A stretch of DNA of 64,000 nucleotides, from contig NC_015151.1 of NCBI RefSeq assembly GCF_000190315.1, forward strand, positions 682,001 through 746,000, in the 5' to 3' direction. The DNA comes from Vulcanisaeta moutnovskia 768-28 (GTDB lineage: Archaea; Thermoproteota; Thermoprotei; Thermoproteales; Thermocladiaceae). The notes beneath the pieces are model-generated. The model searched no databases and was not told where the DNA came from. It saw only the letters and a list, made by a program, of their open reading frames with translations. The translations under genes and the position numbers were made by a program. Below are positions 22,484 through 50,554 of the stretch, one piece after another. Each line of letters begins with the position of its first letter. Position 1 is the first letter of the stretch.

Positions 22484-25400
22484 TCAGGGATTCGACGATT
22501 TAAATAATGACGTACTGCTAATTACGTGGTTTATTAAACGCCTAATCTCATCAGCCAAGTATCTCCTGCACTCAATTTCGAGAACCTCACCCTTAACATG
22601 CCTCTCCTCACTCAGCGCCTCCTCAATGGTGTTCCTAGCCACTACTTCGTAGATTCTCGCCTCAACCTTATCATCACTAGCCCTAACAACACGACCAATC
22701 CTCTGGATCATCTGCCTTCGGGAACCAGTCCCGGAGAGAATAATTGCTACATCCGCATCAGGCACATCAATACCCTCATCAAGAACCGTTGTCGCCACAA
22801 TGACCTTATACGCACCCCTGGCAAACGCCTTAAATATCGAGTCCCTATCACTTGTCTTGGAGGTTATTAATGTAATAATTGGCCCCAACTCTTCCTTAAG
22901 GACTTTATACAACTCCTCAGCCTGCCTTATGAATTGTGTGAAGACAATAATCTTACTACCAATACCAACCTCAGCCTTCACTATTTCCTTAGTAATACTA
23001 ATCTTGGCGCTGGCTACGCTGGCTATGTTCCTCAGAACAATCGCATTATCACCAGCCCTCTCATAGTCCCTCCTTTCCTCAGGCGTTAGGTCAACGTATA
23101 TCCTGAAATGCCTAACAGGAACAACCAACCTAGCCTCAACCATATCCCTATAATCAGCCTGAAACACAACGTCACCAGAACTCAGGAAAATCAAATGCTC
23201 ATTACTATCACTTCTCTTTGGCGTAGCAGACAAAGCCAACCTAAACGGCGCTCTAAGCCTAAACGCAACCTCCTTAAAGGTATCGGCAGGAACATGATGA
23301 CAATTATGCACTACTACCCCATCAGCCACGAAACTATGATCCTCCTCTACCTCAATGTCATAAACGAATTCACCTTCCCTGGAAATGCCTCCAGTGCTAT
23401 CGGTTTGATCAATTCCAGGAATTTCTTCGCCTCCCTCATATTCGGTGTATGTAGGAAGTAGTAATTGCGATATTGTGAAATGCTGAATGTTAGGTCCCAA
23501 TTCGTCTTTAACTACTGTACCAGCTCCCTGTTCTCCTTCAAGGTATAACCCTCCGTATGAAGAGAAATTGCGATATAACCATTTTTCCCCATACTTATTG
23601 ACCCATCGTCCAGGAACCAAACTGCCAATGCTATCGGAGTATTTATCATATTCAGGAACTCCCTGGTTATTGTTTTCCGCCCATTTACGTAAGCCACCTT
23701 GTAAATCTCCGTTAGCTCTGGATGGCAGATAGTTTGAAATCTGTAGACGTCCCCGTAAGCCCCGTACTTCGTATTCCTTTCCAACCTTGGTGGCGACTTC
23801 ACGATATTTTTTAGTTTCGAGTACTTCCACATTAAGTACTCGTACTGGGATAAAGCATGAACCACCGTTAGTCTTGCATTCTTCGCCCTTGGTGGTGGAA
23901 TTGATAGATACCCATCCCCAAGTACCGTACCTAACACTATTTCCCTCTGTTCTTCCGTCAATCTCGGTAATGAAGCTAATCTCCTCTCCTCCCTCATTCT
24001 TACCATATTCCTTATTTGCTGAACTCCCTCTTCTCTGTGAAGTAGCCACCGTTTCTGAGACCTCATCCCTTGAAGCTCTGAGTTGTGAGCCGTCACGTAA
24101 TGTCCCCCAAGGGCTTGAACCGTCTTGAATTCTTTCCCGCAAATTCTGCATTTGTACATCATAAAAGTATACCACATCGCCTCTCTTTAACGTTATCGCT
24201 TGTTTCCATCCATCCTTAGTTAGGACCAGGTGATCCTCAGTTAATACTATCTCTCCCCTTTCATGAGTAACTCTTACTAACCTCTTAATGAGTGGTATCT
24301 TGAAGTAGTTCGTTATACGCATAAAGCGTCCTTTATGCGTCAGAACCTTCACTGGTAAGCGCTTCTCCACGACCTCACCTATGGGCATTAATCCTCTATC
24401 TGTGACTATCAATGCATCGTAAGGTAAGCATTCATCAAACACCACCATGTCGAACTTATCGCTTATTTCTGCTATTTTATTAACGGCTGAGTTGTAAATT
24501 GCCACAGTGACCTCCCTAATATCGTCAAAACCACCACCTAGCCTACCTGCCTTTATGCCTAAGTGCCTCATTATTCTCTCGTACCACTGGTTCATTAATT
24601 CCTCCGTAATTACCAGGATTATTGTCGGTACCTTAGTAACGGCTAGAGCTTTGAGTGCTATGAAGGTTTTTCCACCGCCGGTTGGTACGACGATGGTACC
24701 TCTCTTACCGGCCTTCAGCCAGGAATCGAGGGCCTTTTCCTGAAAGGGTAGGAGCTTTATTTCATCCTTAGGTATTTGTATGGTTCTTGGACTCCATGGG
24801 ACCTCAGAAACCCTATAGCCACTCTTTACCAGCATGTCCTTAATCGTCTCTCTGATGAATACGGGGAATCTAATGATGACTTTATCCTCAGCTCTTACTA
24901 TATCGTCCTTGCGTATAAGCCTCAAATCATACTTATTCAGGTTACCCTCCTTATCAACTACGTAGTACGGTATGGTCAAACCCCTCAACTTATCATAAAG
25001 TTCCCTGGATAGAAAGTGTAGCTCGGCTCCATCAAGGCTGAGCTTGGCGGTCCACCACTCAGTCCTCCTCATGAATAATTCCCTCAACTTATTACTGGCC
25101 AGGGCAAACTCCCGAGCCCTCTTAAGGGCAAGTTCCACGTCGCCAATCACCGCCTTACCAATGAGTAACTGCCTAATACTCTCCACGGCTTTATCAACGT
25201 ACTCCTCATATGAAGATACACTGCCTATGTGATTCCTATCATTTTTAATGAAATCCCTGATTAGGCATGATAGTGAAATAATGAATAAGCCACCCTCCTC
25301 ACCCAACACACAGTCGTTAGGTATGGATCCGAGACTCCCTAAATCCTCGACACCGATTACGCCACCTGACGAGTTTACGAGTATAGCCCTCATTAATTTC

Positions 25401-25612
25401 TCAACCTCCTCACTAGTCAGCTCCAGCAGGTCCTTCAGCTCTCTAATTAATGAAACCGAGTAAACCTTGCCAGTCCAATACTCACCATTCCACCTAAAGC
25501 CCAGCTCCTTCAACCTATCCTTAACCCTCGATACCCTATCCCACGGCCACTCCCTCCTAATCTCAACATCGCCATTAATGACAACCCTAAATCGCATTTT
25601 ATGAATAGCCAA
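22484..25612 (-). CDS. xpb: XPB-type DNA helicase carrying an intein
   Basis: A 1042-codon frame whose extein parts total 666 residues. This is an archaeal XPB/Ercc3-like superfamily 2 helicase, which unwinds or translocates DNA in repair and transcription-related processes. An N-terminal damage-recognition-like region comes first, then the Walker A loop VVPTGGGKT (K315, T316), Walker B VVFDE...CHH, ALSATPKR (motif III), and motif VI MIQRIGRVVRA near the end. An intein spans residues 395-770, splitting the DECHH box after Glu394; splicing must restore it. The Bax1 nuclease partner is not adjacent. Confidence 0.92.
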   Translation of the reverse strand: MAIHKMRFRVVINGDVEIRREWPWDRVSRVKDRLKELGFRWNGEYWTGKVYSVSLIRELKDLLELTSEEVEKLMRAILVNSSGGVIGVEDLGSLGSIPNDCVLGEEGGLFIISLSCLIRDFIKNDRNHIGSVSSYEEYVDKAVESIRQLLIGKAVIGDVELALKRAREFALASNKLRELFMRRTEWWTAKLSLDGAELHFLSRELYDKLRGLTIPYYVVDKEGNLNKYDLRLIRKDDIVRAEDKVIIRFPVFIRETIKDMLVKSGYRVSEVPWSPRTIQIPKDEIKLLPFQEKALDSWLKAGKRGTIVVPTGGGKTFIALKALAVTKVPTIILVITEELMNQWYERIMRHLGIKAGRLGGGFDDIREVTVAIYNSAVNKIAEISDKFDMVVFDECLPYDALIVTDRGLMPIGEVVEKRLPVKVLTHKGRFMRITNYFKIPLIKRLVRVTHERGEIVLTEDHLVLTKDGWKQAITLKRGDVVYFYDVQMQNLRERIQDGSSPWGTLRDGSQLRASRDEVSETVATSQRRGSSANKEYGKNEGGEEISFITEIDGRTEGNSVRYGTWGWVSINSTTKGEECKTNGGSCFIPVRVLNVEVLETKKYREVATKVGKEYEVRGLRGRLQISNYLPSRANGDLQGGLRKWAENNNQGVPEYDKYSDSIGSLVPGRWVNKYGEKWLYRNFSSYGGLYLEGEQGAGTVVKDELGPNIQHFTISQLLLPTYTEYEGGEEIPGIDQTDSTGGISREGEFVYDIEVEEDHSFVADGVVVHNCHHVPADTFKEVAFRLRAPFRLALSATPKRSDSNEHLIFLSSGDVVFQADYRDMVEARLVVPVRHFRIYVDLTPEERRDYERAGDNAIVLRNIASVASAKISITKEIVKAEVGIGSKIIVFTQFIRQAEELYKVLKEELGPIITLITSKTSDRDSIFKAFARGAYKVIVATTVLDEGIDVPDADVAIILSGTGSRRQMIQRIGRVVRASDDKVEARIYEVVARNTIEEALSEERHVKGEVLEIECRRYLADEIRRLINHVISSTSLFKSSNP
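23303..24430 (-). mobile_element. Intein in XPB Walker B motif
   Basis: A 376-codon insertion between Glu394 and the Cys of CHH. Block A is CLPYDALIVTDRG with Cys1. Block B is GEIVLTEDHLVLTKDGW with the TxxH motif. Blocks F/G are VYDIEVEEDHSFVADG then VVVHN, followed by Cys+1 of the extein. These are the residues of a standard self-splicing intein. The middle, about residues 479-745 in the helicase frame, is hydrophilic low-complexity sequence without the usual endonuclease motifs; the endonuclease is found in the +1 frame of the same DNA. Confidence 0.92.
23512..24177 (-). CDS. Out-of-frame LAGLIDADG homing endonuclease nested in the intein
   Basis: 221 codons in the +1 frame relative to the helicase. 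A C2H2 zinc finger (YKCRICGKEFK...GGHYVTAHN, about 8-31) is followed by LAGLIDADG_2-type motifs: REIVLGTVLGDGYLS and LAVWFLDDGSIS, with the catalytic Asp in both. The frame has its own ATG preceded by GAGAGG, and an in-frame TAA lies four codons upstream. It ends at TAG 23512, but the same frame continues past TAG for about 50 codons with family-like sequence (ISQYRNYYFLHTPN, FLELIKPI). The stop therefore probably truncates the last helix. It may be separately translated or decaying. Confidence 0.75.
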   Translation of the reverse strand: MWYTFMMYKCRICGKEFKTVQALGGHYVTAHNSELQGMRSQKRWLLHREEGVQQIRNMVRMREERRLASLPRLTEEQREIVLGTVLGDGYLSIPPPRAKNARLTVVHALSQYEYLMWKYSKLKNIVKSPPRLERNTKYGAYGDVYRFQTICHPELTEIYKVAYVNGRKTITREFLNMINTPIALAVWFLDDGSISMGKNGYIAISLHTEGYTLKENRELVQ

Positions 25613-48416: not shown

Positions 48417-48550
48417 TCAAGCCACAATAACAGGCCTTTTTATAATCTTTACTCATTACGTAGCACGAATACGGCATCATCATTTTACATATATAAAGCG
48501 ATCTTTAAACGAATTAATTTTAATAAGGGCGTTTAATAGGCAATAATTAT

Positions 48551-50554
48551 ATGGTGGAAAATATCAAGGTTCTTTGGTCGCCTAATCAGGACGTGATTAA
48601 GTGGTCGAATATTTTAAGGTTTGTTAATTGGGTTGATGGCGTTTTTGGTTTTGATTTTGAGATTTCTGTTGATGATCCCCTGAGGAATGTGGGTAATTAT
48701 GATAGGCTTTGGAGGTGGAGTGTTGATGATCTCGAGAACTTCTGGGTCAGTATCTGGCGCTACTTCGGTGTTATCCCCCACTCACCCTATACTAAGGTTC
48801 TCGAGCCCAAGACCATGCCTGGTGCCCGCTGGTTCATTGGTTCTAGGCTTAATTATGCAGAGCACGTGTTTAAGGCGGCTCGTTGGGGTGAGGAGGCCAT
48901 TATATACGCTAGGGAGGATGGACTTAGGAGAAGCCTTACATGGGATCAATTGTATAGGGAGGTTGCTGCCTTGGCTGATTGGCTTAGGAGTGTTGGTGTT
49001 GGTAGAGGTGATAGGGTTGCTGCCTATGTTAGTCAAGTCCCAGAGGCTGTGGTGGCTCTACTGGCTACGGCGAGCATTGGGGCCATTTGGGTTGGTGTTG
49101 GTGCTGAGTTGGCTCCTAGGGCTGCTATTGACAGGTTTAACCTGCTTCAGCCTAAGGTATTGATTGCAGTTGATGGTTATCAGTATAATGGTAGGATCTT
49201 TGATAAGTATGGTGATATTAAGCAGATTGTTGATTCGGTGCAGAGTATTGGGAGGATTGTCGTAGTACCGAACATGAGGAATTCAGTGGAGTTAAGCCTT
49301 AGCAAGCCAGTGCATGATTGGAGGGAGGTGACGGGTAGGAGGGGTGTTGGGCTTTCCTATGAGCCCATGGAGTTCAATGAACCACTATGGGTACTATTCA
49401 CGTCAGGCACAACGGGAATACCAAAACCAGTAGTACACAGCCACGGTGGTGTCCTCCTAGAGGCCTACAAGGTTGGTCTTCACATGGATTATAAATCAAG
49501 CGATAAATTCACCTGGTACACGACACCGTCATGGATGATGTGGAACTTCACAGTCAATGCCCTGCTCTTCGGCACGACAATACTCTTCTACGATGGCGAT
49601 CCAACGGCTAGGAACTTCGAACCATATTGGGAGATTACGGAGAAGGAGGGCCTCACAATACTAGGCCTAAGTGCGCCTTATATCCACGCTGCCATGAAGT
49701 CCACGATAGAACCTGGCAAGCAATTCAACCTGAAGACTCTTAGGGAGATTGGCTCAACGGCAGCGCCGCTATCGCCGCAGGGTTTTGAGTGGGTTTACAC
49801 CAAGGTTAAGGAGGATGTTTGGCTAGCGCCAATTAGTGGCGGGACTGATGTTGTCTCAGCATTCGTTGGTGGTTGTCCAATACTGCCTGTGTGGGAGGGT
49901 GAGATGCAGTGTAGGTGGTTGGGGGCTGCGGTCAATGTGTATAATGAGGAGGGTAAGCCCGTGGTTAATGAGGTCGGTGAATTGGTCATTGAGAAACCCA
50001 TGCCCTCGATGCCCATCTACTTCTGGAACGACCAAGACTATAACTGGTACAGGGAATCATACTTCAGTATGTTCCCTGGTGTTTGGAGGCATGGTGATTG
50101 GGCCGTGATAACGAATAGGGGATCGGTAATGATTACTGGTCGTTCAGACTCAACAATAAAAAGAAGGGGTATTAGAATTGGTACTCTCGATATTTATAAG
50201 GTTGTTGAGTCACTACCAGAGGTTGTGGGTAGCCTAGCCGTTGAAGTTAAGAACAAGTTAATTCTCTTCGTTGCCTTAAGGCCAGGTCTTCAGTTGACTG
50301 AGGAATTGAAAAAGAAAATAAACAACACATTAAGGAACCAACTGGGGCCTTACTATATCGCTGATTACATAATACAGGTCCCAGACATACCAATGACCAG
50401 GAATTACAAGAAGCTCGAAGTACCCATCAAGAAGGTCCTAATGGGCTGGTCCATCGATAAGGCGGTAAACATAAATGCGGTCCTAAACCCAGAGGCTCTC
50501 TACGCAGTCATCGAAGCCCTGAAACCATACATAGATGAAATAATGAAGGAATGA
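48551..50554 (+). CDS. Acetoacetyl-CoA synthetase
   Basis: 667 residues. An adenylate-forming enzyme that activates acetoacetate (or a similar short acid) to its CoA ester with ATP. The acetoacetyl-CoA synthetase N-terminal signature PGARWFIGSRLNYAEHVF is present, followed by the AMP-binding loop LFTSGTTGIPKPVVH, YTTPSWMMWN and ISGGTDVVSAFVG, and the C-terminal lysine is in PMTRNYKKLEVPIKK. The next genes in the same direction are an orphan and a thioesterase, so a linked acyl-CoA role is possible. Confidence 0.88.
   Translation: MVENIKVLWSPNQDVIKWSNILRFVNWVDGVFGFDFEISVDDPLRNVGNYDRLWRWSVDDLENFWVSIWRYFGVIPHSPYTKVLEPKTMPGARWFIGSRLNYAEHVFKAARWGEEAIIYAREDGLRRSLTWDQLYREVAALADWLRSVGVGRGDRVAAYVSQVPEAVVALLATASIGAIWVGVGAELAPRAAIDRFNLLQPKVLIAVDGYQYNGRIFDKYGDIKQIVDSVQSIGRIVVVPNMRNSVELSLSKPVHDWREVTGRRGVGLSYEPMEFNEPLWVLFTSGTTGIPKPVVHSHGGVLLEAYKVGLHMDYKSSDKFTWYTTPSWMMWNFTVNALLFGTTILFYDGDPTARNFEPYWEITEKEGLTILGLSAPYIHAAMKSTIEPGKQFNLKTLREIGSTAAPLSPQGFEWVYTKVKEDVWLAPISGGTDVVSAFVGGCPILPVWEGEMQCRWLGAAVNVYNEEGKPVVNEVGELVIEKPMPSMPIYFWNDQDYNWYRESYFSMFPGVWRHGDWAVITNRGSVMITGRSDSTIKRRGIRIGTLDIYKVVESLPEVVGSLAVEVKNKLILFVALRPGLQLTEELKKKINNTLRNQLGPYYIADYIIQVPDIPMTRNYKKLEVPIKKVLMGWSIDKAVNINAVLNPEALYAVIEALKPYIDEIMKE

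Follow-up and report, generated by a model that had tools for sequence, protein, structure and literature searches.

A LAGLIDADG homing endonuclease gene nested out of frame within an XPB helicase intein of Vulcanisaeta moutnovskia

The window analysed here is a 64,000-nucleotide stretch of the genome of the archaeon Vulcanisaeta moutnovskia 768-28, a genome that consists of a single contig of 2,298,983 bp. It contains an XPB-type helicase gene interrupted by an intein, and inside this intein the +1 frame carries a gene of the homing endonuclease type (HE). The features discussed below are the following (positions are those of the window; G007 is a complete genome of the same genus):

22484-25612, minus strand: XPB-type helicase gene, intein-containing precursor of 1042 aa, with Helicase_C, ResIII and ERCC3_RAD25_C matches
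23303-24430, minus strand: intein in the helicase frame, 376 aa, from C1 to the terminal HN, with Cys at +1 (TIGR01445 and TIGR01443, both above cutoff)
24218-24430, minus strand: N-terminal splicing region, with block A CLPYDALIVTDRG at 24430-24392 and block B with TEDH at 24256-24218
23347-24162, minus strand: HE gene in the +1 frame, 271 codons plus stop (PF03161, E=2.4e-30; 72% amino acid identity to the G007 copy; selection in the HE frame)
24082-24156, minus strand: C2H2 zinc finger of the HE, YKCRICGKEF...HYVTAHN (PF13912, E=5.9e-7)
23908-23937, minus strand: first LAGLIDADG-type motif of the HE, VLGTVLGDGY, aligned to I-SceI
23822-23854, minus strand: helicase-frame beta-strand F.PVRVLNVEV of the Hint fold, with invariant residues, antiphase in the HE core (the HE reads LSQYEYLMWKY)
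23599-23628, minus strand: second LAGLIDADG-type motif of the HE, LAVWFLDDGS, aligned to I-SceI
23512-23514, minus strand: premature TAG in the HE frame, a Trp codon at the same place in G007
23303-23365, minus strand: C-terminal splicing region, with block F VYDIEVEEDHSF and block G VVVHN (TIGR01443, E=6.7e-9)

The helicase frame is open across the whole precursor, and the XPB model NF045503 matches the host gene with E=1e-49, yet remains under the cutoff of that model. Translated from 24430 to 23303, the intein reads CLPYDALIV...FVADGVVVHN, preceded by FDE and followed by CHHVPA, and it splits the DExH motif of XPB between DE and CHH. These borders and the intact blocks A, B, F and G in the helicase frame are exactly those claimed by an earlier sequence-only reading of this DNA, and the two splicing-domain models agree with them, TIGR01445 in the N-terminal and TIGR01443 in the C-terminal region; PF14890 reaches 35.7 bits for a cutoff of 35.8. 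C1, T64 and H67 are invariant across six inteins. The host frame satisfies the criteria for an intein (the four blocks, Cys1, TxxH, C-terminal His-Asn and +1 Cys) and also that of an empty site: six genomes of the same genus (G009, G011, G006, G002, G003 and G008) cross the XPB site without an insert, as read from match coordinates. What fails is the in-frame endonuclease of a canonical large intein, the HE being in the +1 frame in both the window and G007. From its motifs the intein would be expected to excise itself and restore XPB, splicing itself being inferred. A second intein of the same genome lies outside the window in ribonucleotide reductase (RNR; L001, G000:C1:616673-617746), with its LAGLIDADG endonuclease in the normal frame.

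The +1 frame had been described as a zinc-finger LAGLIDADG protein, and both parts of this description hold at the E-values given above: PF13912 recognises the finger, and the LAGLIDADG_2 (PF03161) criterion is met over both motifs, in which GDG and DDG are conserved. Compared by sequence with solved structures, the HE matches I-SceI over both motifs (E=1e-13) and 6x1j more weakly. Structure predictions for the intein and the HE were of low confidence (mean pLDDT of 34 and 50, respectively); the best PDB matches of the HE model are I-SceI chains, which we take only as support for the sequence result. The nested frame does have its own start, an ATG at 24162 kept in five same-genus loci, even across a Tyr-to-His codon change. 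An alternative ATG lies at 24177; the GAGAGG motif that had been proposed as its ribosome site was rejected as a good one, because it lies only 2 nt upstream of this ATG and the ATG is absent from G007. No convincing ribosome-binding site was seen upstream of the HE start.

The other end of the nested frame required a correction. The sequence-only reading was right about the out-of-frame gene itself, but ended it at TAG 23514-23512 and overlooked that this stop is premature: homology and selection extend to the TAG at 23349-23347, the terminal stop common to the window and G007, and the PF03161 match grows to 1-160 of 168 positions (E=7.5e-36) when the premature stop is read as X. As a consequence of this extent, nucleotides 23365-23347 code both for the start of the C-terminal splicing region and for the end of the HE. 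The premature TAG follows codon 216 and removes the last 55 codons, so that the frame is not intact in the window genome; we take it as a recent inactivating change that probably leaves the HE non-functional at present. No fully intact copy was found, the window and G007 each carrying one nonsense codon; in G007 it is a TAG at codon 72, apart from which the HE is intact.

Relatives were searched for in 100 related genomes. Inteins at the same site are present in four genomes of the same genus (G007, G010, G001 and G004) and in two of another genus of the family (G012 and G015). The layout in G007, with the helicase frame and the out-of-frame HE, is identical to that of the window, and the alignment of the two inteins contains just one 3-nt gap. 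Four of the genomes with the intein, G010, G001, G015 and G012, have a decayed or deleted HE frame but an uninterrupted helicase frame, the stops in the helicase, HE and third frames of these four relatives being 0/2/9, 0/2/12, 0/8/32 and 0/6/26. The helicase frame of the G004 intein (L008) is broken, which could reflect misassembly or genuine loss; this genome is an 81%-complete draft and the locus was left out as evidence. The class-level relatives G074 and G080 (L042 and L043) also have XPB inteins at the same site, in frame and degenerate, with a different middle. The alignment with related XPB inteins, which had been suggested as a check, revealed no in-frame copy of the window's HE among the 100 relatives and the same frame relation in G007. 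These comparisons show that the layout arose before at least two species separated and that remnants of it persist in another genus.

Searches further afield gave no additional out-of-frame case, the PF03161 hits examined in 398 genomes of the phylum being in-frame inteins or stand-alone ORFs. Three other loci (L053, L055 and L057) are LAGLIDADG_2 ORFs; in L055 and L057 the sequence before the open frame resembles AVAQPGRAPVD and may represent a tRNA gene that has been interrupted, and ARAGORN found no tRNA at the ORF of L053 or L057. A profile of the two HEs detected no relative in viral contigs, phage records gave only distant matches of about 30-34% identity, and the scan of genome contigs returned one distant bacterial intron relative: in a bacterial MAG (L003:5150-6050), a LAGLIDADG_2 ORF with 34% identity to the window HE adjoins a group I intron in 23S rRNA.

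The substitution test in both frames, likewise suggested beforehand, revealed purifying selection in the HE frame. Counted by helicase codon position, the differences between the window and G007 are 11/5/45 in the N-terminal splicing region, 116/51/43 in the overlap and 2/1/10 in the C-terminal splicing region: in the overlap they concentrate on the third positions of the HE (116 versus 51/43, p=1e-10), and in the splicing regions the preference shifts abruptly to the third positions of the helicase. The pN/pS of the overlap is 0.24 for the HE frame (95% CI 0.19-0.31), against 1.36 for the helicase frame (1.03-1.87) and 0.95 for the third frame. The pattern continues 3' of the window's premature TAG (18/9/5, p=0.016); since it is present on both sides of this stop, selection acted on the HE at full length, and the TAG arose recently. 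After HE decay the pattern is gone (32/39/36 for G010/G001 and 50/50/50 for G015/G012). The strong signal in the HE frame rests on one species pair only, the window and G007.

The helicase frame has no stop in the roughly 270 codons across the HE in the window, and none in G007 either. Synonymous recoding of the HE produces on average 9-21 helicase-frame stops, and none of 20,000 simulations gave zero. T-ending HE codons are avoided where they would make a helicase-frame stop, namely before AA, AG or GA (0/60 versus 53/147 elsewhere in the window, p=7.5e-10; 0/58 versus 37/151 in G007, p=2.6e-6). Control sequences of the same genome, read in the equivalent frame, contain 26 stops in 267 codons for the RNR intein, and 54 in 394 and 52 in 272 codons for the helicase exteins. 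Among the 39 long open frames of the window, the stop-free run overlapping the HE is the longest nested one. Elsewhere in the window, an acyl-CoA synthetase-like gene (48527-50551) has a 159-codon stop-free run in one of its other frames (48684-49160, plus strand), probably due to chance. For the helicase frame chance was rejected by the stop avoidance, by the simulations and by the openness after HE decay, the frame being open in four relatives with a decayed HE, and the earlier suggestion that selection keeps it open gains firm support. As judged from these patterns of substitutions and stops, the analysis shows that both frames have been under selection.

The same data bear on the alternative that the sequence-only reading had itself raised, in which an ordinary in-frame intein recently had its HE displaced by two compensating indels in the window genome. 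Ordinary forms do exist: the RNR intein is in frame, in-frame LAGLIDADG_2 inteins occur elsewhere (G246), and the same-site inteins of G074 and G080 are in frame, with other, degenerate middles. However, G007 has the same frame relation and no indel besides the 3-nt gap, no in-frame copy of this HE was encountered in the relatives, and the helicase would be broken by the roughly 9-21 stops that a newly displaced frame would bring with it. Long coexistence out of frame is needed for stop avoidance as well as for HE-frame selection; together with the openness of the helicase frame after HE decay, these two rule out compensating frameshifts as a recent event, and we consider this origin highly improbable. 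As for how the long-standing nested arrangement first came about, a whole endonuclease gene may have been inserted, or a frameshift may have occurred deep in the ancestry.

Within the overlap, one segment appears to be constrained in both frames. Between Q93 and V356, the only helicase-frame residues invariant in the six inteins are F193, P195, V196, L199 and V201, in the stretch F.PVRVLNVEV, and a 24-nt run within the DNA of this strand (23848-23825) is the longest identical run between the window and G007. The low-confidence intein model predicts a strand at 193-206, the stretch is found close upstream of block F in G010, G001 and G004, and when aligned with the in-frame G074 and G080 inteins it corresponds to the Hint strand preceding block F (an Mtu RecA mini-intein was also included in this alignment, of which only the G074 and G080 rows were relied on). 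In the other frame the same DNA encodes LSQYEYLMWKY, which belongs to the LAGLIDADG_2 core of the HE, and the strand is still conserved where the HE is dead (L012 and L014). We infer from this conservation that the DNA of F.PVRVLNVEV codes for functional sequence in both frames. The helicase-frame middle had been viewed as a low-complexity linker; it does have long unconserved stretches, but it is not linker only, with a conserved Hint strand inside it.

This strand also matters for the idea that programmed frameshifting, or slippage during transcription, leads into the HE frame and back again to make a single fused product. The geometry would allow it: the HE frame starts right after block B and ends in block F, so that two shifts would give a canonical fusion. 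At the first junction, however, no slippery run is conserved among the seven loci, and the ATG is kept there in the five same-genus ones; moreover, selection keeps open the unshifted helicase frame, with its conserved strand in the middle, and a frameshifted product would need neither. A fused product is one to which we give scarcely any credence, and two separate products remain the preferred reading.

Divergence between the genomes informs on mobility. Between the two genera the N-extein has a pN of ~0.33 versus 0.07-0.12 for the N-terminal splicing part of the intein, and within each genus the divergence of the intein is comparable to, or faster than, that of the extein. The low between-genus divergence of the intein, taken with the empty sites, points to its horizontal movement between genera, a spread presumably driven by the out-of-frame HE, homing and cleavage being inferred. 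One may object that the HE frame is a mere relic of an old in-frame HE, untranslated in its present configuration, given the nonsense codons in both near-intact copies and the decay of four others. Against this, purifying selection acted on the HE frame between two species with the out-of-frame layout; its trace can be followed beyond the window's nonsense codon on the 3' side, and transfer of the intein between genera seems to have taken place. A mere relic is thus very hard to reconcile with the data, and a formerly active nested gene is preferred.

In published descriptions of inteins, the endonuclease is a domain in the same frame, located at a single conserved position (PMC6801210). The RNR intein and the ligase-type intein of G246 (L045) share with the XPB intein the splicing blocks and a LAGLIDADG endonuclease between blocks B and F; in those two the endonuclease is a same-frame domain, whereas the window HE is a separate gene in another frame. 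I-SceI (1R7M) and the LAGLIDADG_2 enzymes of rRNA introns belong to the same nuclease family as the HE and have its two-motif layout, but are separate ORFs in introns, whereas the HE is intein-borne and carries a zinc finger at its N-terminus. Split inteins of the "fractured genes" type reportedly have a separate endonuclease gene between intein halves that splice in trans; they are split, whereas the frame of the XPB intein is continuous through the HE gene. The closest parallel is the ShiLan domain, for which hidden out-of-frame HNH endonucleases were described in phage methylases (PMC11855218). Both cases have a homing endonuclease gene inside a coding gene in an alternative frame with the host frame open, its own start codon, zinc-finger domains and a patchy distribution. 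ShiLan differs in being a phage system with an HNH nuclease and no splicing domains, thought to remain in the host protein; the present case is archaeal, with a LAGLIDADG_2 nuclease, a host frame recognisable as an intein and one part of the splicing fold encoded antiphase to the core of the nuclease. Of the ShiLan-type criteria, an alternative-frame endonuclease with an open host frame is satisfied, and the absence of splicing domains with an HNH nuclease is not. The ShiLan paper was the only one found in the literature on inteins with an out-of-frame endonuclease, most subscription journals being outside our coverage. In-frame inteins and out-of-frame HNH endonucleases without splicing were known separately; here an intein is joined to an out-of-frame LAGLIDADG gene.

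The identical layout in G007, the selection in the HE frame, the avoidance of helicase stops and the openness after HE decay bear out the principal claim of the sequence-only reading, an intein with a nested out-of-frame endonuclease, and we are strongly persuaded that this is a mobile XPB intein whose DNA encodes two proteins in different frames. The helicase-frame product would consist of blocks A and B, a long unconserved stretch, the Hint strand, a second long unconserved stretch and blocks F and G, and its self-excision would restore XPB. The +1 frame, read from its own start at 24162, would yield an independent LAGLIDADG homing endonuclease with a zinc finger. When active, this enzyme would spread the intein by cutting XPB genes that lack it; the window HE is probably freshly dead, as the homing cycle would predict. 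Protein splicing, independent translation of the HE by internal initiation and homing are all inferred, without expression data. We are inclined, with less assurance, to see here a distinct kind of mobile intein, a complete HE gene overprinted on an intein that can splice, one strand of whose splicing fold lies antiphase in the HE core: precise loss of the HE DNA would damage splicing, and the essential gene would thus shield part of the parasite's sequence.

A separate, overlapping HE gene breaks the rule that the endonuclease of an intein is an in-frame domain, and a splicing element can then spread by means of a nuclease outside the spliced polypeptide. Two proteins packed in this way into one piece of DNA are rarely seen, and the locus is a natural example of dual coding maintained over a long time in a cellular genome, for which the decayed and empty relatives serve as internal controls. 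Finally, it suggests that intein annotation restricted to the host frame misses endonucleases.
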